DNA of 64,000 nt, from contig JACZZP010000007.1 in NCBI GenBank assembly GCA_015183035.1, positions 1,798,001 to 1,862,000 of the forward strand, written 5' to 3'. Made by a program: the position numbers and the translations under genes. A model generated the notes under the pieces. The model made no database searches. It had not been told where the DNA came from and saw only the letters and a program-made list of their open reading frames with translations. This document shows, one piece after another, positions 4,258-23,103 of this stretch; position 1 is the stretch's first letter, and each line of letters begins with the position of its first letter. This stretch comes from Meloidogyne chitwoodi. Lineage: Eukaryota > Nematoda > Chromadorea > Rhabditida > Meloidogynidae.

Positions 4258-4300
4258 GAAGCCAAGCCATTATTTAAATTTAAAAAACGAAGCCAAGCCA
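4258..4300 (+). promoter_or_regulatory. Left pair of GAAGCCAAGCCA motifs
   Basis: GAAGCCAAGCCA occurs exactly at 4258-4269 and 4289-4300, a 31-bp period, in the divergent intergenic region between the small basic gene and the PAZ gene. The same 12-mer recurs three times at 19328-19401 with the same spacing in the other edge promoter of the element. I infer a shared transcription-factor or regulatory site array; this function is not proved. Confidence 0.6.
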
Positions 4301-4426: not shown

Positions 4427-4434
4427 TATAAAAG
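4427..4434 (+). promoter_or_regulatory. TATA box of the PAZ gene
   Basis: A canonical TATAAAAG lies 39-46 nt upstream of the ATG at 4473, implying a leader of roughly 10-20 nt. TATA boxes at similar spacing precede several other genes of the element. Confidence 0.65.
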
Positions 4435-4472: not shown

Positions 4473-5012
4473 ATGTTGTATCTAATCGACGAGTGTACCA
4501 AAATTCTCAAATGTCGACCAAACTCCTTGCGTGATCATTTAAATCATCCTTCAAAACGCTCACTTCTAATTTCAAAACTTAAAGGAAGAAAAGTACGTAC
4601 TCTGTATTCTGATCGGAATGGATTCCGCAAAACATTTATCATTTCTGATTTTACCCATAAGGGAGCTCATTCTATTATGGCATATGGTGCTTTATCTCGA
4701 CCTTTCAATGTTTCAGTAGCAGCACATTTTTATTCTCGACATAGAATTCGTCTACAATACCCGTATTTACAGTGTGTAATTGAACAATTTCCACGTCGAT
4801 GTGAGGATAGATTTTACCCTTTGGAACTTTTGGAGTTTGTAGATGAAAATGTGGAAGATTACATTAGTTTTCCTGTATCTAAGGAGGATAAACCACTATA
4901 TGTTGAAGTTTCGGACAAACTTAATATTGATAAAACAACTTCTGAAGCAGATAAGGATATAGATGAGCCTTTAATTTTTGAAGATGATTTTGATGAAATG
5001 GAAGGATGGTAA
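4473..5012 (+). CDS. PAZ-domain-only Argonaute-like protein (179 aa)
   Basis: Uninterrupted 179-codon gene. Residues 1-35 read like the end of an Argonaute L1 linker (hydrophobic segment, then LISKLKGRKVR, the position where Argonautes have a conserved KGLKV). Residues 36-127 match the PAZ order: a beta-rich segment, FNVSVAAHFYSRH (compare the VAxYFxxxY step), then RIRLQYPYLQCVIEQFP and FYPLELLEFV, the two most conserved PAZ strips. From about 128 the tail is acidic and low in complexity. MID and PIWI are absent, so it cannot slice. PAZ domains bind the 3' ends of small RNAs; a free PAZ could sequester them (inference). It has its own TATA box, and the repeated 12-mer upstream links it to the virus-like element. 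Alternative: a captured, decaying host Argonaute fragment, though an open frame this long in AT-rich DNA argues for selection. Confidence 0.68.
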   Translation: MLYLIDECTKILKCRPNSLRDHLNHPSKRSLLISKLKGRKVRTLYSDRNGFRKTFIISDFTHKGAHSIMAYGALSRPFNVSVAAHFYSRHRIRLQYPYLQCVIEQFPRRCEDRFYPLELLEFVDENVEDYISFPVSKEDKPLYVEVSDKLNIDKTTSEADKDIDEPLIFEDDFDEMEGW

Positions 5013-5176
5013 ACTTATGATATATTTTTTAAATTTTTCTCCGAAAATTTTTAAATTTATTTCTTCTTAATGTTAATGTTAATTATGTAAATTTTCCCAA
5101 TAAACTTATTAAAACTAATTTTTATAAAAAATTTATTAAATTTGAAAAAAAATAAAACAATAATAAAATTAATTAA

Positions 5177-8100
5177 AACCAAAATCTAATACAATAGAAT
5201 CACTTGGACGAACAATACCTTTACCTACGAAGGGTCGATACATTTTATTTAAATGTTGGGTACAACAGAACCTTTTTTTACAGAAGGGCGAAGAAAGTTG
5301 GGATAATTAAGATTAAGAGGGGGACAATAACCATTATTATTAATAAAATAAAAAACTTTTTCTTTAAATTTTTCATACTGCAATTCCTGGTTGACAACCA
5401 CATTCCAGCTCAACGTTATTCCTCTCAGTTTTAAGACGAATTCCGCATCTGCATCTGGTGGCATCTTCCGTTTAAGCATCAAACCATATTGCTTGGCTCC
5501 ACCAGAGCAGTACTCCTTGATGAAGTGCTGCGGATATTCATCCGTAAACTGGCCAAGATGTGGTCCAAGTTCAAGAGGGCACCTTTCTGAAGGGTGTGCA
5601 AAGATGAGTGAATCAGTATCTTAAATTTATTTTAGTTAAATAAAAAAAAATTTTTTAATTTACCTGTGTACAAAAGTGTACATCCAGGTGTCCTGACAAC
5701 TTGTTGCATTGCCTTCAGAAGATGAAGTCGTGCCATAGAGGTCGTCCATAAAGAAATAACTAAAGAATTTTATTATATTTATGTTAATTTTAATTAAAAA
5801 CATACCAACATTCGAACATTCATGTTCCTCTACCCAATCTTTTTTAGTCAGGTGAGAGATGAGGATTATATCAGGAGTCAACTCATCTACAGAAGAAACT
5901 TCTTTGCTTGAATCATCGATAATTTTTCTCCATGTTGCAGGGCTGTCAGTAATTGTAGTTTGACTTAGCCCAAAATTTCTCAACGAGAATCGCCCCCCTA
6001 AATTTATTATAAAATTAATTATTATTAGTAAAAAAAAACTTACATAAATTATTCAAACACAGTTTAGCCTGTGTACGCTTCCCCTTATTCGGCACCTTAA
6101 ACAAAATTATTCATTTTATTAAAATTTTTAAATTTACCATTTTATTTCGATCAATTATTATATCAAATTTATCTGCACATTCGCGGATAAATTGTTCTTC
6201 AGATTCCAAATTTCCTTTGATCGAGTTGTCAAACCCCGAAGAATGTATCTTCTGGGCCATAAATTCTGCAATGTAGGGTCGAAATAAATTTTCATCTGAT
6301 GTTGTATACTCGAGGACCCTGAAGAGCTTCGTTACATAGTAGCCCTCATCAAGCGCTGCGTTCAGTTCCATTGACGTGCAAGTACTAACCCAACCACGTT
6401 GTTGATCTTCGTGAGTGCATCTATAATTTTCCTGCACACCTCCTTCAGGATTTTCTCTTCTAAAAATTTTTTTTTAATATTTAAAAAGTTATTGTTAAAC
6501 ATACGCGCAAGTGATGCATAATGGGAATAAAAGCCTATCATTTGATTTGACAGGTAAGACAGGCACATCGATTCTCTTCGGAGGGATCACAAAAACCTAA
6601 AAAAAATTAAAATATTTTTGGAAAAATTTTTTACCTTAAGAATAGCCAAGTCAAATTTATTATCATTAGAACTTGTCCAAAACACATCTTGGTTGAGAAT
6701 ATGGACGATAGGATGTCCAGTTGGGTACTTAGTTGTTACATTAATATATGGGTAGAGACTGGTGACATCATAATAACTTATTCTTTCACCAGGCTGAGCA
6801 GAATGAAATAATTTTAGTGGACCTGTTCTGCCTCCATAGAATGCTGATCGAATGTCGATAGGACCGTTGTCGAGATATTCATCAAACTTTTTCTTCATTT
6901 CTTTATCTTTCTTCAACATTTCTTTAATCTCACATTCCCAATATATTTTGATATCCTGAATCTGAGGCTTGATAAAATCAAGTCTCTTCTTGTCCAACTG
7001 TCGTTGACGTCCAGCAGTTTTTCCAGAAGGAAGAACAATATTGTCGTCAGGGTAGCATTTGATACATCCATGCCAACAACATCCATTTACTTCTATTGCA
7101 AGTTGTTGTTGTTCTACCCATCCATCTAGTCGATAATTCCCAATCCTTTTAAAATTTTATTAATTATATTATAATAAAACTTTTACCTTTTTTCTCCATC
7201 CGGTGAATTGGCATGTTGAATAATTACATCATATTCTTCAGCATACCATTCCAAAAATTTCAAAGCTAATAAGCTTTGATTATCTTTGTTGTCATATCCA
7301 CGTTCTGGAACGATTCCTACATGTTCTGCCTTCAGATGATTGGTTCTGAAGTGGCGCATACATGCGCTGGCAATGGTCATTGATTCACGTAGAACATCAA
7401 TGCCTTCATTTCCTCTCATTGAAACCTAAAATATTTTTAAATTATTATTATAGTTAAAATTTTTAACCTCCATAAATTCTTTACGAAAAGCAATAAGTCC
7501 GGCCATTAAAATTTCAACATCATTCGTGCAATATGAAGCAAGAGCTTCAGTAAGATTGAAGGGTTCCATATGATGTTGTTCGTACCACAAATCAAATTGT
7601 TTTCTTTTTTCTGGAAGCATTCCATCAGCCAGGTAGTCAGCCTTTGTTGGATGAATTTCTTTCCCATAGTTGCGAGGATGGTTTGCCAGGTGAGGAAAAT
7701 ATGGTTTATCCTCAACTTGAAGTCCAAATGCTGGAACCAAAGATGCAAGAGACATTGGCATCAGGTTGAAGGAGTCTCTAAAGATGATACTTCCTTTCTT
7801 CGGTCCTCGGGATGTTATCTTCATTTCGTACATTTTATTCCCTCTTTTTAACATTTCAGGTGTATATCCTTAATTTTTAATTAACAAAAATATTTTTAAA
7901 ATTATTACCTTTGAGAAACAATTCTTTGAAAACAAGTACCATGTCAAATCTTCCACCAAAGTGGGAAAAAGCAATAGTATCATGTTCTTGAGGTAATCCA
8001 TTAATTATCCAGTCGACAAAAGCCTCTAAGGGTTTTGGGTTAATAAACATTTTATCAACAGTTGTTGTTGTAAATGGATGATGTGAAAAAGTTAAAATTC

Positions 8101-9917
8101 TATTTTCACCACAAACTTGACATTCACTTTCCTAAAAAATTTTTGTTTTTAATTCTAAAATTTAAATTTACCTCTAAAATACATTCTGGGCATGTAACTT
8201 TAGCACATATGAAATTTGCCTCGTGCTTCTTTCCGGTATCAGAAGGAAGATATTGTGTTGTTTCCAGGTCGAAGGCTATAAATCTATATTTCTTTGCAGT
8301 TTTAAGCTCTAGAGGTTTGATGTAACATCCTCTCTTGGGATCATGGTAATCCCCACATGTACCACAATGTTTTTCCCCGCATACGTGCCCTTTTCCGCCA
8401 GCCTTTGAAAAACAGTTCACGTTCCAAACAACACCACATTTTTCACATTCCTTCGACATATTGCAGAAGCCACATTTGAGATGATATTGATAGCAGTTGT
8501 TGTTATAAAATATTTTTTTACATAATTCACATAATTTGTAGAAGCCTTCAATGATCTTGCAAGGGAAGCCAGGTCCAACTCTTGAACATTTAATACATCT
8601 GGCTTTGCATGAAGAATTATGTCGAGAATCTCTGTTGTACACTTTTTCACAATGTAGACAATAGGGTTGTCCAAATAAACCACCAGTCTTTTTCACACCA
8701 TCAAAGTGTTGATTTTTGTAGTATAAAATAATTGGTGTGTCGAAATTATCAGGACCACTTTTAAATTCCGGCTCATAGTAACCGAGCGATCCAAAGACGT
8801 AGGCTTTGAAGATATGTTTTCCAGAATACTTGTTGTTCCAATAGTTAACAACAAGAGGGATCCATTCTTCGGCGTTGTAAGAGTTTAAATTTCTTGGTGC
8901 TCCAATACTTTCCATTAATTCTTCTGTATCTTCTCTAAATTTATTTGCCATACCATGTTGACTTCTAATATAACGTGAAAATTTTTCGTAATGCCAATTG
9001 AACACGGTGTGAACAAGTGTTGCTACAAGCGCATAAAAGAGACAATAAGTATCGTTGTTATTTTGAATCTAAAATTAAAAAATTAATTACTGAATCATAA
9101 CATAGTCCTAGCTAACAGAAAATTTTAAATATTTTACTTTTATCAACCTAAAGATTTTTATATTATTTATATTTCCTTTTAAATCCCACACTTAAATTTT
9201 ATCATTTTGTTAAAACTTGGTAAACTGACCTTAATCAGAGCTCTCTCATTAATTCGGTGACGAACAGGAGCCATTTTTCGATTTCCTGAACCAGGTAATT
9301 TATGTTGTTTAGGTAGAGAATTCTTATCAACAACTGTTGCTGTCACCGTGAAAGGTTGTCCAAAAAGTGAAACATCCTTCTGACGAAAACTTTGAGCAAC
9401 CAAAAGAAAACGGTTGAGTATAGCATCAACCGTATTCTCATTTCTATCTCTGAAAAATCGAAATTTTAGTAAAAATGGTCACAAACAAAACCAACCTCAC
9501 AGGAATCCATACATCATGATCCAAGATTTCGCTGCTAATGACGCAACCTATCTGTTCAGCTTTCAAGCCTCGATTAACACTGGCTTCTACAGCTTCGTTT
9601 AAGAAATATTGAAAAATTCCTGTAAATTATATTTTTAGAAAAAATTTTTTTAACTTACTGCTAAGAAGTTCTTCAGGATCCGCAGGTAGATCTTTTATCA
9701 TAAATTTTGATCGACACTTCAAGAACTTGAATTTTTTGTTTTCCTCAATTGTTGATTCAAGTCGATCAACATAATCCTTAGGTTGTTTTGAAGAAGAAGA
9801 ACCAGCTCCATCTTGAAGACCAAGTAAATTGGTGATGGAAAAAATAGATTGAAGTCCAAGGAGACTTTCAATAGTAAATCGAGTACGTTTTCTCGGTGGA
9901 GGATTATTATTATCCAT
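5177..9917 (-). CDS. polB: Protein-primed DNA polymerase B (Polinton type), intron-containing
   Basis: About a dozen exons joined by 40-60-nt introns. In order: a Ser/Pro-rich N-terminus; an OTU-like stretch with TYCLFYAL near 9040; a Cys/His zinc cluster (8650-8350, many CxxC); exonuclease motifs FDLETT (Exo I, ~8265), FGGRFD (Exo II, ~7950) and YCTNDVEIL (Exo III, ~7525); polymerase motif A YYDVTSLYPYIN (~6760); a motif B exon pair around 6090-5960 (lysine-rich KGKRTQAKLCLNN, then the phenylalanine-glycine segment); motif C TDTDS spanning the intron at 5626-5656. The catalytic residues are all visible. The last exon meets a stop at 5249, while a plausible C-terminal tail continues in another frame to about 5177, just past a run of seven A (T on plus, 5273-5279). 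The enzyme would replicate the element from its ends using a terminal protein. Intron number is high for a virus-derived gene. Confidence 0.88.
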
Positions 9918-11935: not shown

Positions 11936-13258
11936 TTATATAGTGGTGTCACTGGCTATTGTTCGATTTTTGTCTAGAATAATTAACGAGTCTGCTTCTC
12001 CCATAGCAACAAGCATGATTCCTCCGTCTGGTACAGGTTGGCTAAATTTAATATTCACGGCGGTTGTTCCATTCTTTATTAAATCAAAAAGTCCTCCTTG
12101 ATCATCTCCACTATTGGTTAAATTAAAGACATAGATGCAGTGAGTACTACCGTACTGTTTTAGAGTAATTCCATTACTTTCTGTAGAATTTGCTAGACCA
12201 AACTCATTCATGTCATTAAATGCTCGGATATATCTACCATTTTCAAAGTCAAAATCATAGGGAGCCTGAGGGTAGCTCCGACCATTGGCAATTACACTAA
12301 TTTCACGGACATTAAAATGCTGGAAATTGAAAGGACTACGTCCAACATTTCCAACATAGTCGGAATTTGCTACCAGACCAAGAGTTATTCTTCGAGGAAT
12401 CTGATCCATAAAGAGATTAGCATTAAACTCATATCTCCCTTGGCTAATGAATAGGGGTTTCATCATTGTCTTTCTTATAGCATAACGAGCTGGCTTGGTA
12501 TCTAATTTTCTTGCAATATCTAGAGCTAGTCCATCCATAAGGTCCATCTTTTTTACATAAAGTTTACAATTGATAACTTCAAAGTGGTAGCGTAAAGGTT
12601 GAGCAATACCGAGAACAGGAGGAGCAATTAAGACGAATTTTGTATCATTTGGTAAAATTTCAATATCTATCTCACATTGATTTATTAGATATAAAGGTTG
12701 ATTAAAAATATCAGCATCAAGTTTTGCAATAAACTGAGCAGTCTTACTCAACGAAAATAAACTTTTTCTTGCATTATATCCGACTCCACCTTCTAAACTT
12801 GTTTCAGGGTCAAAATAATAACCTGCTGCATTGAGATGGGAATTTTTAGCTCCTTGAGAATACGATAATTCATACGATAAATATGTTTTGTAAGCATATA
12901 AGGAATTTGAATTAAAAATTTCGCGCCCATTTATACTAATTTTCATATTATTAATAAAAGTTTGTCCTATAAGTTGAATAGGTGCTACATTATCCGTTGA
13001 TGAAATATTTATTAAATGCCCATTCTCATTCTCTTTTCTAATTCGAAATTCGGTAAAAAGATAACATTTTGTCAAATCAATATAATTTTGACTTGAATGA
13101 ATTTTAAAGTGGTAAGGAGTATCAGTAAGAGGGTTGCTGGGAAGAATTTCAAAAACTTTAGATGAAGATACTGTAACATTTGTAGGGGGAATTTGAAAAA
13201 AATCAAGAGCACTTGTAATTGAATTTATACTTTCACTGTCAATTTTGTGAAAAGCCAT
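11936..13258 (-). CDS. mcp: Major capsid protein (double jelly-roll)
   Basis: Intact 440-residue ORF. Its length, beta-rich character and position between the pX-like gene and the protease match Polinton major capsid proteins. Recognisable features are YHFKIHSSQNYIDLTKCYLF near residue 50 (the typical opening strand region of this family), a central SRGRY-like strip read here as ISQGRYEFNANLFMDQIPRR near 275, and GSTHCIYVFNLT near 370 where the second jelly-roll closes. Trimers of this fold build the icosahedral shell in adenovirus-like and Polinton-like particles. The start codon is 9 nt downstream of the stop of the 13267 gene, so the two may be co-transcribed. No frame damage is seen. Confidence 0.85.
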   Translation of the reverse strand: MAFHKIDSESINSITSALDFFQIPPTNVTVSSSKVFEILPSNPLTDTPYHFKIHSSQNYIDLTKCYLFTEFRIRKENENGHLINISSTDNVAPIQLIGQTFINNMKISINGREIFNSNSLYAYKTYLSYELSYSQGAKNSHLNAAGYYFDPETSLEGGVGYNARKSLFSLSKTAQFIAKLDADIFNQPLYLINQCEIDIEILPNDTKFVLIAPPVLGIAQPLRYHFEVINCKLYVKKMDLMDGLALDIARKLDTKPARYAIRKTMMKPLFISQGRYEFNANLFMDQIPRRITLGLVANSDYVGNVGRSPFNFQHFNVREISVIANGRSYPQAPYDFDFENGRYIRAFNDMNEFGLANSTESNGITLKQYGSTHCIYVFNLTNSGDDQGGLFDLIKNGTTAVNIKFSQPVPDGGIMLVAMGEADSLIILDKNRTIASDTTI

Positions 13259-13801: not shown

Positions 13802-15217
13802 TTAGAAGTTTATAACTTTTTTAAATATTAATACGATCATTACAGTACCGAATGCAAAAGGTACAAGTCTTCCTCCGTCCATCGTTCTTAACTCTATCTC
13901 AATCTCATTAATTTCTTTTGGAAGCACTCGAATATAGATTGGGGAGTCGTAAATTTTCTCTTGATATTCTCCAGGAGTTCCGGACACAGAGACAACTCTC
14001 AATAGAGAACTTAGAGAATTGCCGACAATCATGTTTTCTGTTAATCCTTTTGAATAAACAGCAAAACTTGAGAATCCTCCCCGTAAATCACTTCCGTATT
14101 TTGCTGTCTCATTGTTCATTACCATCATTGAATTTTCAAAACCTAGTACATAACCAAGTTGGGGAGAGAAAGACAAATATTTTATATAATCATGTGAGAA
14201 TTCCAATTTGAAACGTTTAAAATCATGATGAAAGTATAGAGATATTGAATTAATAATTTGTTTTAAATCTTCAACACTAAATTCAGCTTTACTATTTTTA
14301 TTCTTCTTTCCAAGTAATACATCAAAAACATCTTGTTTTTCACCTTTTTCCCTTCTAGATAACCCCATAACGTCTAACACACTTGGTGTTTGTGTGCTAT
14401 TTTCCTTTCTTTCCTTCTTTAGAGGTGATGGAAGTGAAGGCAAGGTTTGAGTTAGAGTAGAAGGTTTAGGTATTGGAAGTGAAGGTATTTGAATTTGAGA
14501 AGTTGTTTGAATAGAGGGAGAAGTTTTTTGTGATAATGTTTGAGGTGGTGCAGTAGAAGGAGGAGGAGGTGCAGGAAGAGATTTTTGAGGTGTTGATGAT
14601 TTTTGCTGAGGAGGCTTAGGTGTTGAAGTTGGAGGAGTTGGAGGTTTTTGAGTGTTTAAAGTGTTTTGTGGGGATTTTTGGAGATTTGTAGGTGTAGGAG
14701 GTGAAGGTATAGATGATTTTTTTGGTAATTCTTTTTTCTTAGGATCAGCCCAAAGTGGAGGTGAACCAAGTTCTCGAGCTTTTGGAGGAGATGGAAGAGT
14801 TGCTTCTGAAGATTTTATTTCACGTTTTGAACGGTCAGGCCTTAGTGGTGAAATTACGACAGGTTTTTGTACAAATCCTTCATCAAAAGATTTTGCTTCT
14901 AGTGCTCCACTTTGATGTTTCAATGTTGAGATTAAAAAACTTTCCAAATCTTGGGGTTTATTGTGGGAACCTCTTGGAACAGGAACATGAATAACTTGTT
15001 CAATTTTATTATCAGTACAGTGAATATCTATCCATTGTTCATCTAAAGTACCTATTGTCGAGTGCCAAGAATAAGGATATGAAATACTATGCAAACCACA
15101 CACCCAATCACCCGAAAAGTAAATTGGTTTTGGAAGATGAACTCGAAATTTATTAGGTTGATTATCGGGATAATCAGTTGTATTACTTAGTAAACAAACG
15201 TAAAAACTATTTGACAT
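13802..15217 (-). CDS. Minor capsid (penton) candidate with a Pro/Ser/Thr-rich insert
   Basis: 471 residues. The N-terminus has FYVCLLSNTTDYPDNQPNKF, then FRVHLPKPIYFSGDWVCGL and SISYPYSW, the signature of the Polinton single jelly-roll minor capsid family. The conserved part is interrupted at about residues 130-300 by a low-complexity proline/serine/threonine/lysine insert, then resumes with a hydrophilic beta-rich C-terminal half that ends in a short hydrophobic strand. The insert keeps frame through many repeats and is likely a flexible surface or scaffold region. The penton would occupy fivefold vertices. The gene follows the integrase on the same strand with its own TATA box. Identification relies on the N-terminal motif; an alternative is another structural protein of the same block. 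Confidence 0.7.
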   Translation of the reverse strand: MSNSFYVCLLSNTTDYPDNQPNKFRVHLPKPIYFSGDWVCGLHSISYPYSWHSTIGTLDEQWIDIHCTDNKIEQVIHVPVPRGSHNKPQDLESFLISTLKHQSGALEAKSFDEGFVQKPVVISPLRPDRSKREIKSSEATLPSPPKARELGSPPLWADPKKKELPKKSSIPSPPTPTNLQKSPQNTLNTQKPPTPPTSTPKPPQQKSSTPQKSLPAPPPPSTAPPQTLSQKTSPSIQTTSQIQIPSLPIPKPSTLTQTLPSLPSPLKKERKENSTQTPSVLDVMGLSRREKGEKQDVFDVLLGKKNKNSKAEFSVEDLKQIINSISLYFHHDFKRFKLEFSHDYIKYLSFSPQLGYVLGFENSMMVMNNETAKYGSDLRGGFSSFAVYSKGLTENMIVGNSLSSLLRVVSVSGTPGEYQEKIYDSPIYIRVLPKEINEIEIELRTMDGGRLVPFAFGTVMIVLIFKKVINF

Positions 15218-15256: not shown

Positions 15257-15264
15257 CTTTTATA
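15257..15264 (-). promoter_or_regulatory. TATA box overlapping the integrase stop codon
   Basis: TATAAAAG on the minus strand, 40-47 nt upstream of the ATG at 15217. The first three bases after TA form the TAA stop of the integrase (15260-15262), an example of dense packing. Confidence 0.65.
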
Positions 15265-16339
15265 CAAGTTGATTCTCATGAATCCATTCCCTTTCGGGAT
15301 ATCCTATAAATTTTACAAGAACTTCATATGTACCATCTTTTCTCTTTCTTTTTCGATAAATCTTCTCAATTCTGTATTCTGTCTCGGCATCTTTTTTAAC
15401 TCTAGATAACTCTTCGTTGTAAAATGATCCCTTATACTTTTCTCCCTTGGGATCTTTAATTTTGTATCTTGTAGGACGCGATTGGTCTTTGACTTTGTCA
15501 ACTTCAGCTATTACATCACCCCAGTTTGGGATATATCCTTTTTCAAAGCTTGTTTTATTTATGCTCATTCGAACAAAATCACCCTTTTTAAATTTGGGTT
15601 TAGACTTTCTAGTTTTTGTTTTACCATAAATTATCTTCCAAACTTTTTGAGCATTTTTAAAATTTACATCTATAGGTCTCATTCCATGAACTCGACATTT
15701 AGCCTTATTAATTCCTTCCAAAATTTTTGGTAAAATATCAATCCAGTTAAGGTTTTTATAATGTGCAAAGTATCGATATAATCTTTGTTTAATATTTCGA
15801 ATTGCACGTTCTGCAAGTGAAGCCTTGACAATTGAATGAGTGGCCTCAAATTTCTCAATTTCTTCTTTTTCAAAAAATTCTTTTAATTGACGGTTTTTAA
15901 ATTCTAATCCTTTATCAGAAAATATTCTATGTGGTTTCATAGGCATTTGATCAAGTAATTTCTTGAATGCATCAGGCATATCTTCACCTTTCTTAGATTT
16001 GACTGGTACTCCAAAAACTTGTTTAGATAAAACATCGATTCCCAATAATAAATATCTATTTCCTTTATTATGTCTAGATAAGCTTTGGAAATCTGCCAAG
16101 TCTACTTGGACATCTGTCATAAATCCAGCTGCTATTGTTTTACTTCTAGTAAAATGTATTCTCTTGGGACGCATAAGAGTGTAAGTTCGGTGTCCCTCAA
16201 GAAAATCTTGAACTAATTTACGAGGTAAATGTTTATGAGTTTTGCGTGCCTCAAGCCATAATCTATCTACACCAGAAAATGCTGCAGGCGACTCAGGATT
16301 ATTATAGAGATGTTGTAAATGTTTTGTATAATCTTCCAT
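15260..16339 (-). CDS. int: Retroviral-type integrase with C-terminal chromodomain
   Basis: 359 residues. The conserved Polinton opening (NNPESPAAFSGVDRLW, then KRIHFTRSK) is followed by the rve DDE core: first Asp in QVDLADF near residue 80, second in FSDKGLEF near 142, and the catalytic Glu in KASLAERAIRNIK near 173. An SH3-like basic part (KFKKGDFVRM) follows. The last 40 residues are a chromodomain: YRIEKIYRKRKRKDGTYE with VKFIGYPEREW, including the aromatic positions that bind methyl-lysine. The enzyme inserts the element into host DNA, and the chromodomain could steer it to marked chromatin. Catalytic residues and frame are intact. The gene is 12 nt from its upstream neighbour and overlaps the promoter of the next gene. 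Confidence 0.92.
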   Translation of the reverse strand: MEDYTKHLQHLYNNPESPAAFSGVDRLWLEARKTHKHLPRKLVQDFLEGHRTYTLMRPKRIHFTRSKTIAAGFMTDVQVDLADFQSLSRHNKGNRYLLLGIDVLSKQVFGVPVKSKKGEDMPDAFKKLLDQMPMKPHRIFSDKGLEFKNRQLKEFFEKEEIEKFEATHSIVKASLAERAIRNIKQRLYRYFAHYKNLNWIDILPKILEGINKAKCRVHGMRPIDVNFKNAQKVWKIIYGKTKTRKSKPKFKKGDFVRMSINKTSFEKGYIPNWGDVIAEVDKVKDQSRPTRYKIKDPKGEKYKGSFYNEELSRVKKDAETEYRIEKIYRKRKRKDGTYEVLVKFIGYPEREWIHENQLV

Positions 16340-17933: not shown

Positions 17934-18590
17934 TTAAATTCCACTTTTTGGAGTAAAGACTACCCTTTCTTCATCTTCCTTAAATATCCCCGTCCTCAGT
18001 CGTAAACTAGGTTCAGATGAAGCATGCATATCGATTAATAGATATCCGTAGGGTTGGTTAGTAGCTTGTCTGTAAGAATCAAGGAAATAATCTAGTTTTC
18101 CAGGAAAAAGTTGTACGCCTATATTTCTTATTGCAAGAGCAGAATTTGGAGACCGCATTAAAATAATATATTGGGCATTTTGTCGGGCGACTTTAATTTT
18201 TTTATCGAATAAATTTTGTGTAACAAAAATAACACCAAAGTTTTGATGATGTGATTTTTTAGTAAAAAGTTCAGACAAATATTTTTCATCAATTGAAAGT
18301 AATAAATCATCAAGAATTAAGAGAAAGGGTTTTGGGAGAGTTTTTAATAAATCTTCATTAGGTACACCGACAAAGACATTAACTCCGGATTTTTGAAGTA
18401 ATGGAACAATATTACTCATTTCCCCGAAACAGTAAAGTATACTCTTTGGTTTGGGTTCAATTAACTCTGCTGCTTCAGAAATAAATTTTAAAAGAAATGT
18501 ACTCTTTCCACTAGAACTAGGACCCGATACAATCATACCAAAAGGCAATTTAAATTTTAAATCTTTATTTGAAAATGTTAATGCTTCCAT
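17934..18590 (-). CDS. Genome-packaging ATPase (FtsK/HerA family)
   Basis: 218 residues, the normal size for Polinton packaging ATPases. Walker A is IVSGPSSSGKSTFLLKF near residues 21-35. Walker B is PFLLILDDLLL near 88, with paired acidic residues. Downstream, FGVIFVTQNLFDK near 119 provides the Gln sensor typical of the A32/HerA group. It would drive DNA into preformed capsids. All motifs are intact. It is preceded by its own TATA box in the 46-bp gap to the 18637 gene and followed after one base by the next gene. Confidence 0.9.
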   Translation of the reverse strand: MEALTFSNKDLKFKLPFGMIVSGPSSSGKSTFLLKFISEAAELIEPKPKSILYCFGEMSNIVPLLQKSGVNVFVGVPNEDLLKTLPKPFLLILDDLLLSIDEKYLSELFTKKSHHQNFGVIFVTQNLFDKKIKVARQNAQYIILMRSPNSALAIRNIGVQLFPGKLDYFLDSYRQATNQPYGYLLIDMHASSEPSLRLRTGIFKEDEERVVFTPKSGI

Positions 18591-18636: not shown

Positions 18637-19263
18637 TCAAAGAGGTGGTTGTAATTCTTCTTCGTTCTTATTTTCTGGGATTCCCATTGTAACAGTTTGC
18701 ATAGAATCAAAAAAATCCAAAAGAACTGTATTGTCTTCATTAGATGTATCAATTATTTCATTAATTGGTGTAGAGACCAAGGGTGGTTCTATCAATTTTT
18801 CTTGAAGAGGTGCAATTGGTGGCGGGGGTGGTGGTGGAGGTAATTGACTTTCAGATTTTCGCTTGCTCGAATTTTGGACAGGGCATACATTTTGTGACCC
18901 ATATGGAATATTCAAAACGCGGCCTTTGTTTTTAATCTTAAATTTAAATTTCATTTTAATTTTATTACAAATGACCTTGAAGAAACAATGTCCTGGCAAA
19001 TCATAAATAAAGTCAAAAGGTACAAAGCGAGGGGTTGAGAATCGGGTACAGTAGATAGTTACTCCTTCTTTTGTCACGATAAAATCAAGCTCTATCTCTG
19101 TACTCTTACATTCCCGGCATCTACCACCATTCTCAAAAGGAATAAAACGGGGAGTAGAAATTCTTTCACTAGTTAGTGTAATACCGTTTGTTGTAAAATT
19201 GAATTCAACCTCGGGTAATATCTGAGTCATCAAAGACTCTTTATTATTAATATTAATTGCCAT
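18637..19263 (-). CDS. Unrecognised protein with an internal STPRF repeat
   Basis: I use the ATG at 19263 (MAININNKES). The longer frame starts at 19335 inside the GAAGCCAAGCCA array and runs through the TATA box at 19319-19326, so it cannot be transcribed from that box. The 208-residue product has two related blocks: GITLTSERISTPRFIPFENG, and GVTIYCTRFSTPRFVPFDF about 45 residues later. Each is followed by a cysteine or a CREC-type pair, suggesting a duplicated beta module. A KR-rich strip, a polyproline run (about 10 P) and an acidic C-terminus follow. No family is recognised. It is the first gene of the morphogenesis block, and its promoter is shared with the divergent 19529 gene, so an early or regulatory role is possible. 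Confidence 0.6.
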   Translation of the reverse strand: MAININNKESLMTQILPEVEFNFTTNGITLTSERISTPRFIPFENGGRCRECKSTEIELDFIVTKEGVTIYCTRFSTPRFVPFDFIYDLPGHCFFKVICNKIKMKFKFKIKNKGRVLNIPYGSQNVCPVQNSSKRKSESQLPPPPPPPPIAPLQEKLIEPPLVSTPINEIIDTSNEDNTVLLDFFDSMQTVTMGIPENKNEEELQPPL

Positions 19264-19327: not shown

Positions 19328-19401
19328 GAAGCCAAGCCACTATTTAAAATTATGAAAAGGAAGCCAAGCCACTATTCAAAATAAAAAAGGAAGCCAAGCC
19401 A
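19328..19401 (+). promoter_or_regulatory. Right triplet of GAAGCCAAGCCA motifs
   Basis: The exact motif (one copy with G for T before it) starts at 19328, 19360 and 19390, spacings 32 and 30 bp. It lies between the divergent 18637 and 19529 genes. A weaker related AAATAAGCCACGCCCC follows at 19431. It mirrors the left pair at 4258-4300 in sequence, orientation and spacing. Confidence 0.65.
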
Positions 19402-21930: not shown

Positions 21931-22150
21931 CCTTTCCTCAGACTCAAGTAGCACCTTTACAATTTTGCTGCAAAATCAAAGGTAACTAATTAATAAGTGC
22001 TAATTAGTCAATTAATCTTTTTATTATTTGTCACCTAAACCCTTAAGTTTAATTATTACTAGGACCCTTCCTCAGACTCAAGTAGTACATTTACAATTTT
22101 GCGGCAAAATCAAAGATAACCAATTAGTACCTACTAATTGGTTCATTAAC
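21931..22150 (+). repeat. Two-copy ~125-bp repeat with hairpins
   Basis: CCTTTCCTCAGACTCAAGTAG at 21931 recurs (CCCTTCCTCAGACTCAAG) at about 22065, each followed by TTACAATTTTGC and GCAAAATCAAAG. Each copy ends in a palindrome: the second is 12 bp on each side of a 2-base spacer at 22118-22143 (AACCAATTAGTA and its complement); the first has an 8-bp version. This looks like a structured or protein-binding site that was duplicated. Confidence 0.75.
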
Positions 22151-23103
22151 ACCTTGGAGTCTGTCGGCAAGATAAAAGAACTCATGTCAAAACCCTTCGC
22201 GACTAATTGGAACATCAAACGAAAAGCCGCTAAAAACCCCTTACACCCATAGATTTTTTCGGACCCCTCCCCAAAACCCCTCAATAGGTTGGCGGCATCC
22301 CTTTGTGTGAAAATCTGGCTGGTTACTACTCAGAAAGATCTAATTAAGACTGATTAAAATAAGAATTAATTATTTCTAAAAAATGGATTCTTAAATATTA
22401 AATTAATTTTAAAAAATCTATTATTTTTCCCACCTTATTCTTTATATAAAAAACTGCTTTTCTGTTTAGAATTATTTTTCCTTTTTTGTCATCTTTTTTT
22501 TCTACCATGTAAATATTTTAAAAATGCAGCTGATAAACTTTAAAAAAGAGAATTCTTATTAAAATTAGAGGTATTCAAATACTTCAAGTATATATTTTTA
22601 TTTTTTATTTATTTTAAATTTATTTTTTAATTTTTAAAAAATAGTTAAGTGATAGTATGTATTAGTGTTACTGAAAATGGAAAAATTTATGTACTCGAAT
22701 TATTTAGAAATTAAAGAAAAAATAGAAGAAAAATTGTAAGGAATAGTTATTAAAATTGACAAGAAGTAATTTAATATTTTAATATCAAACTAATTATAAA
22801 TAAAAAAAACTAAAAATTATTAAAAAATTAAATTTACATAAATAATTTTGGAGTAAATGTTAAAAAAATTTTTTTTTAATTTTATTTACATCTTTTCTCA
22901 ATTATTAAGTAAATTTAATTCTCTTGAAAGATTTTATTTTAAATAAAAGTGAATTTAGAATTTTAATTTTCTTAATATTTTTATAAAAAAATTTTAGAAC
23001 TTAACAAGTTTAGATACACACCGCATTTATTCGTAAAAAATATTTTATTGTTGGATCAATTTTGGTTGTAAAATATTTTCCTTCGAATAAATGTGGTTTG
23101 TAT

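Follow-up and report, generated by a model that had tools for sequence, protein, structure and literature searches.

The stretch of Meloidogyne chitwoodi DNA analysed here (64,000 nucleotides, hereafter the window) contains a Polinton that carries a stand-alone PAZ gene (4473..5012, plus strand), whose product of 179 residues consists of a PAZ domain (about the first 126 residues) followed by an acidic tail (net charge -15), predicted to be disordered and ending in tryptophan. We hold the chances to be even that a Polinton lineage has made a captured Argonaute PAZ domain into a gene of its own, the product of which would sequester the 3' ends of small RNAs against silencing, an activity that we infer from the sequence.

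The initial annotation had called the domain by motif, and its 179-residue frame was recovered exactly at that position with all three of the amino-acid strips that it quoted (3/3) present in the translation. When the protein was compared with Pfam, PF02170 (PAZ) was the sole matching family (E 2.6e-6, residues 32-125), with a score of 27.8 bits, 1.0 bit under the gathering cut-off of 28.8 bits. Many paralogues in the genome scan exceed this cut-off (up to 37.1 bits), and all 36 members of a family alignment match PF02170 at E <= 0.01 (best 9.8e-9). The predicted fold of the window protein is likewise that of an Argonaute-type PAZ, collinear across residues 227-350 of AGO2, so that profile and predicted fold both support the identity of the domain. 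The strip that had been read as an L1 linker aligns within these same residues, that is, inside the PAZ domain instead. The absence of MID and PIWI was borne out, with no match to PF02171 (Piwi) anywhere in the window; the sole Piwi match listed for the contig (C28) is placed at 1692057, inside a host Argonaute.

The pocket was compared with that of human AGO2, for which the accessible sections of a binding and modelling study (PMC5896489) describe H271, Y311, R315, H316 and Y338 as touching the 3' overhang and K335 as a contact of high relevance. Among the 86 family sequences, some of them with gaps, the equivalent of H316 is a histidine in 83 of the 84 with a letter at this position, and that of R315 is arginine in 63, histidine in 20 and lysine in one. 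Histidine and tyrosine share the Y311 position (42 each, plus one isoleucine), the Y338 position has tyrosine or phenylalanine in 80 of 83 sequences (Y 42, F 38, H 2, V 1), and at H271 tyrosine (65) is found together with histidine (20). Of 85 sequences with an equivalent of R277, 40 have lysine and 8 arginine there, F294 has no equivalent that can be aligned with confidence, and conservation is lacking at K335 (E 32, H 22, C 16, K 6, T 5, G 2, N 1). Most of the alignable 3'-end contacts hence appear kept or similar, K335 excepted. The AGO2 entries of the PDB include a designed R315V/H316A pair.

The window protein shares with the Argonaute PAZ (PF02170; human AGO2 and AGO1, Drosophila AGO1 and AGO2) the predicted fold, the R-H pair, the PLE strip and several of the 3'-end contacts. 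It differs in the loss of K335, in its lineage-specific tail, in being encoded by a mobile element and in its architecture, since an Argonaute comprises N, PAZ, MID and PIWI domains and the 179 residues hold PAZ alone. The presence of much of the pocket, the absence of the slicing domains and a carrier of the type that host small RNAs silence are the grounds on which sequestration is proposed.

In groups A and B of the family the tails are acidic and end in an aromatic residue, in group C they are near neutral or basic and in group D almost absent; tryptophan is the C-terminal residue in 34 of the 86 members. An artefactual origin of the tryptophan before the stop, as part of a splice donor (TG/GTRR), seems unlikely in view of an AATAAA at 5099..5104 (plus strand), which may serve the PAZ gene as polyadenylation signal, and of the same terminal W in database proteins of other Meloidogyne. 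Such a residue, within a tail predicted to be disordered, could point to a dominant-negative partner that contacts Dicer complexes or the Argonautes of the host, for instance through a C-terminal (G)W serving as Ago hook, with a precedent in the P1 suppressor of sweet potato mild mottle virus (SPMMV), in which WG/GW motifs act according to the available text of PMC2904775. However, a single W in each tail makes a weak motif, and the hook cannot be the common mechanism since the proteins of groups C and D do not end in W; we regard this explanation as quite doubtful. A tail mechanism valid for the whole family, be it an Ago hook or an SSB-like tip, was discarded with the same distribution of terminal tryptophans and tail charges.

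The genes around the PAZ gene define the element. A family B DNA polymerase region (6587..8951, minus strand) is made of open pieces between AT-rich gaps, with DNA_pol_B_2 in 6587-6919 and 7426-7854 (PF03175, E 2.2e-11 and 2e-9 for two pieces) and a further piece, used as marker (8124-8951, minus strand), without Pfam match of its own. On the same strand are placed a retroviral-type integrase (rve, 15260..16339; E 2.7e-5, under its curated threshold, plus a weak chromo match at the C-terminus), which adjoins other markers in related elements, and an A32-like packaging ATPase (17934..18590; Pox_A32, E 2.9e-4, just below the curated cut-off). Polymerase B, rve integrase and A32-like ATPase together identify the window element as a Polinton. 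The minus strand also contains a conserved ORF of 440 residues (11936..13258), used as element marker and named capsid candidate by its size and place only (0 Pfam matches over the cut-off and 0 PDB sequence matches), a conserved ORF with no assigned function (13802..15217) and the ORF nearest the opposite edge (18637..19263). No Pfam match above cut-off to an adenovirus-like cysteine protease was seen among the ORFs scanned, and for the double-jelly-roll major capsid protein of Polintons the 440-residue ORF is the candidate. These elements have in common with Polintons/Mavericks the polymerase B, the rve integrase, the A32-like ATPase, the terminal repeats, the 6-bp target duplication and a length of about 20 kb, and carry the PAZ gene in addition. 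The short open pieces of the polymerase gene (window 5200-9000, minus strand) have intron-like, AT-rich gaps between them; in another lineage a related match to the polymerase marker lies within a 1433-aa open frame.

The limits of the element were established from its copies. A sister copy on contig C27 (20,602 bp) is bounded by inverted terminal repeats (224 bp with 90.6% identity, followed by a weaker stretch, one end with one extra AGT) and a 6-bp target duplication (AATTTT), and contains between its polymerase marker and terminal repeat a PAZ ORF 97% identical to that of the window. The right terminal inverted repeat of the window copy (22000..22330) was located by its inverted match to the opposite end of the C27 copy, with the element end ...ACTACT at 22330. 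On the other side there is no C27 match left of 3875, so the left end of the window copy seems lost. A third copy (G000 C4, about 1564780-1579210) is 99.9% identical to the window over 10 kb and ends at window position 7915, so that the PAZ gene is missing there; this suggests recent activity and a subsequent truncation. A group C element (C30:2328251-2347937; 19,687 bp) also has the PAZ gene inside its terminal repeats (994 bp at 99.5%) and target duplication (TGAGTA). No terminal repeats were seen in the pieces of D-type elements examined, the right end of which has an ACTACT terminus.

A repeated 12-mer had been proposed as common to the region upstream of the PAZ gene and the opposite edge of the element, and it was indeed found at both. 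Five copies of GAAGCCAAGCCA occur in the window (0.01 expected from shuffling), two of them upstream of the PAZ ORF (4258..4269 and 4289..4300) and three at 19.3 kb (19328..19401; starts 19328, 19360 and 19390), just upstream of the first ORF of that edge. All five are on the plus strand, thus facing the PAZ gene and reversed with respect to the ORF on the far side. Genome-wide the sequence occurs 13 times, 12 of them within three element copies (window, C4 and C27), and its reversed control does not occur (0). Its presence at both edges ties the upstream region of the PAZ gene to the element, and a role in regulation, as part of a promoter, is putative. A TATA-box-like TATAAAAG (4427..4434, plus strand), a candidate for such a role, begins 46 bases upstream of the ATG.

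Searched against its own genome, the window ORF gave 36 matches, 33 of them without internal stop. All except two (34/36) have one or more of four Polinton markers in a 20-kb neighbourhood, and such neighbourhoods cover 6.3% of the genome; the binomial probability of 1e-38 overstates the association, as related copies are treated as independent. In seven of the 34 the sole nearby marker is a 275-aa ORF preceding the polymerase pieces, itself without Pfam match. One of the two exceptions is a host Argonaute exon and the other is locus L026, where the PAZ gene adjoins a relative of the 13802-15217 ORF (46% over 172 aa, E 8e-37) and therefore seems to be element-borne too. The element remnant of L026 is flanked by repetitive sequence open in many frames (L056 7400-8564).

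Counted from the capsid candidate, a PAZ match lies no more than 20 kb away in 44 of 54 loci, a rule that may credit one PAZ to a neighbouring locus, and in 40 of 54 when each PAZ is assigned to the nearest locus only. By identity class of the capsid candidate, PAZ is present in 20/26, 5/6, 5/7 and 14/15 loci. Six of the ten loci without PAZ match in that distance also have no polymerase marker there and are probably incomplete. The PAZ profile matched 18 further places (one of them the host Argonaute exon counted above as an exception), two near Polintons, which belong to group D, and 16 away from them, as expected for exons of host Argonautes and Dicer. This co-occurrence, together with the terminal repeats and target duplications of the C27 and group C elements, rules out a stray host gene next to the element and agrees with the earlier proposal that the element itself encodes the PAZ protein. 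Within this genome, neither a missing PAZ match, nor another fold, nor homologues confined to loci outside Polintons was thus encountered.

The place of the gene varies with the type of element, from between polymerase and element end in the window type to the vicinity of the ATPase or of the capsid candidate in others. A second PAZ group (D) occurs in elements with capsid candidates that share 31-33% identity with that of the window; within the 33% class, 14 of 15 loci have their nearest group D match 0.5-2.3 kb from the capsid candidate (start to start). By Pfam PAZ, the group D proteins P0024 and P0034 score 29.7 and only 16.7 bits, respectively; the comparison of the group D and group A profiles gave a probability of 98.7% over 66 columns, and P0022 and P0023 combine features of both groups. 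As the predicted group D model has a mean pLDDT of 40.9, the assignment of this group rests on sequence. The proximity to the capsid candidate could indicate a structural or packaging role, or else a regulator of element transcripts that binds RNA 3' ends through PAZ, an explanation that we consider rather improbable because the position is a different one in other element types. In loci L061-L066, with group D and E PAZ genes, an apparent intron directly before the QYFY strip is seen in some copies and absent in others, which suggests gain or loss of introns inside the elements.

A lone PAZ domain also binds the 3' ends of single-stranded DNA, and the tails of bacterial and T7 SSBs recruit polymerase. 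The main and serious rival to sequestration is a replication factor that would bind free 3' ends, or single strands displaced in the course of protein-primed DNA replication, replacing an SSB, with the tail of groups A and B recruiting the polymerase. The frequent presence of PAZ among the capsid-candidate loci, its place between polymerase and element end in the window type and the charge and terminal tryptophan of the window tail all speak in its favor. The polymerase-adjacent place is not kept in the other element types, however, and the argument of the tail fails for groups C and D. On balance we find a role in replication unlikely, though it is the alternative that deserves most weight.

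Selection on the PAZ protein was examined in 13 pairs. The dN/dS of the PAZ core is 0.11-0.18 in eight of them, those with more change, and 0 in two, with none of 7 changes (window versus C27) and none of 5 being non-synonymous. Two pairs with few changes gave 0.24 and 0.56, and one could not be computed because synonymous sites were saturated. The tails are mostly looser than the core. In three element pairs in which the PAZ core has values of 0.13, 0.14 and 0.17, those of the capsid candidate are 0.05, 0.09 and 0.08, those of the integrase 0.27, 0.08 and 0.13 and those of the ATPase 0.05, 0.06 and 0.11, and the dN of the PAZ core is above that of these three genes in all three pairs (3/3). 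The PAZ core is under purifying selection, yet looser than the capsid candidate and the ATPase. No sign of positive selection was seen in the pairs compared, though an arms race might give one. The higher dN, the variable place and the lineage-specific tails fit an accessory factor facing the host. Against sequestration, the low dN/dS and the wide presence also suit a core gene, K335 is lost and ten of the 54 capsid-candidate loci lack a PAZ match in the 20-kb range.

Ten host Argonaute loci were searched with the family profile, and one PAZ (C28:1693640) reached 50.3 bits against 19.7 for the next, a gap that is partly unfair, since several of the other host PAZs are split by introns and were scored piecewise. 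This domain belongs to a gene with a Piwi match (C28:1690500-1696500, L037), about 109 kb from the window PAZ gene on the same contig. In a tree of 83 columns, with many weak inner branches and several partial host rows, host and element PAZ are separated with a support of 89, a hint that the elements may have captured the domain once. The score of this host PAZ and the truncated C4 copy without PAZ gene could be taken as signs of a mere passenger, either a functionless fragment of a host Argonaute copied by the elements or a nearby host gene. The near absence of stops among the ORF matches, the low dN/dS, the location within terminal repeats, the conservation across element lineages and the relatives in several Meloidogyne species make this scarcely credible.

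Database searches returned 23, 15 and 28 proteins (three occurred more than once), of which 12, 13 and 10 had a named organism, always a Meloidogyne, the remainder coming from metagenome or read collections. The 12 named relatives of one search are 52-82% identical to the window protein. These proteins are already public, as PAZ domain-containing or hypothetical proteins; the Meloidogyne entries of UniProt and NCBI called 'PAZ domain-containing' are relatives of the window protein whose automatic names make no mention of Polintons. The relatives in other Meloidogyne species may be located in Polintons as well. In viral collections, each of which may omit records of or near the genome of the window, 25 pattern matches on IMG/VR contigs yielded 0 confirmed relatives, no relative was found in phages and no predicted viral structure matched at E <= 0.001.

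As regards the silencing that such elements would face, PRG-1/2 have not been identified in plant-parasitic nematodes, and ERGO-1 and ALG-3/4, the Argonautes of endogenous siRNAs, were also not found in root-knot nematodes, according to the accessible sections of PMC5934874; given the absence of PRG-1/2, other small-RNA pathways must act in plant-parasitic nematodes. In Ascaris, likewise without piRNAs, WAGO small RNAs target repeats (available text of PMC8837657). For sequestration the following course is envisaged, at a probability that we place slightly short of even: an ancestral nematode Polinton captured an Argonaute PAZ, which became a standing gene acting in counter-defence as a guide-less fragment, made by a virus-like transposon, in competition with host Argonautes for the 3' ends of small RNAs. 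The PAZ protein would grip the 3' ends of host small RNAs, or those of siRNA duplexes made from the element, and no cleavage would be guided by it. Argonautes would then load or retain fewer small RNAs, and the element would evade silencing during its expression and replication, to its own benefit. The proposed effect, fewer active small RNAs, is the one that viral silencing suppressors (p19, B2, viral RNase III and SPMMV P1) have in common with the window protein. To our knowledge none of these suppressors is a PAZ domain.

No description of a PAZ gene in Polintons was found in a search of open-licence PMC papers, including the available portions of PMC3671162, PMC4504477, PMC4901422, PMC5896489, PMC5934874, PMC8160347, PMC8837657 and PMC2904775. 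If sequestration is true, animal DNA transposons use part of the silencing machinery to counter it, and the lone 'PAZ domain-containing proteins' recorded for root-knot nematodes in databases are explained; caution would also be due before PAZ-only proteins are counted as nematode Argonautes. If the role is in replication instead, PAZ gains a function outside RNA silencing in eukaryotes.

Two further features of the window lie away from these genes. An array of 36-38-bp tandem repeats occupies positions 1762-2285, to the left of the element, and the segment 34001-36000 has a higher G+C content (0.47, then 0.37) with a GC skew of 0.33 in its first half, the rest of the window being mostly 13-35% G+C.
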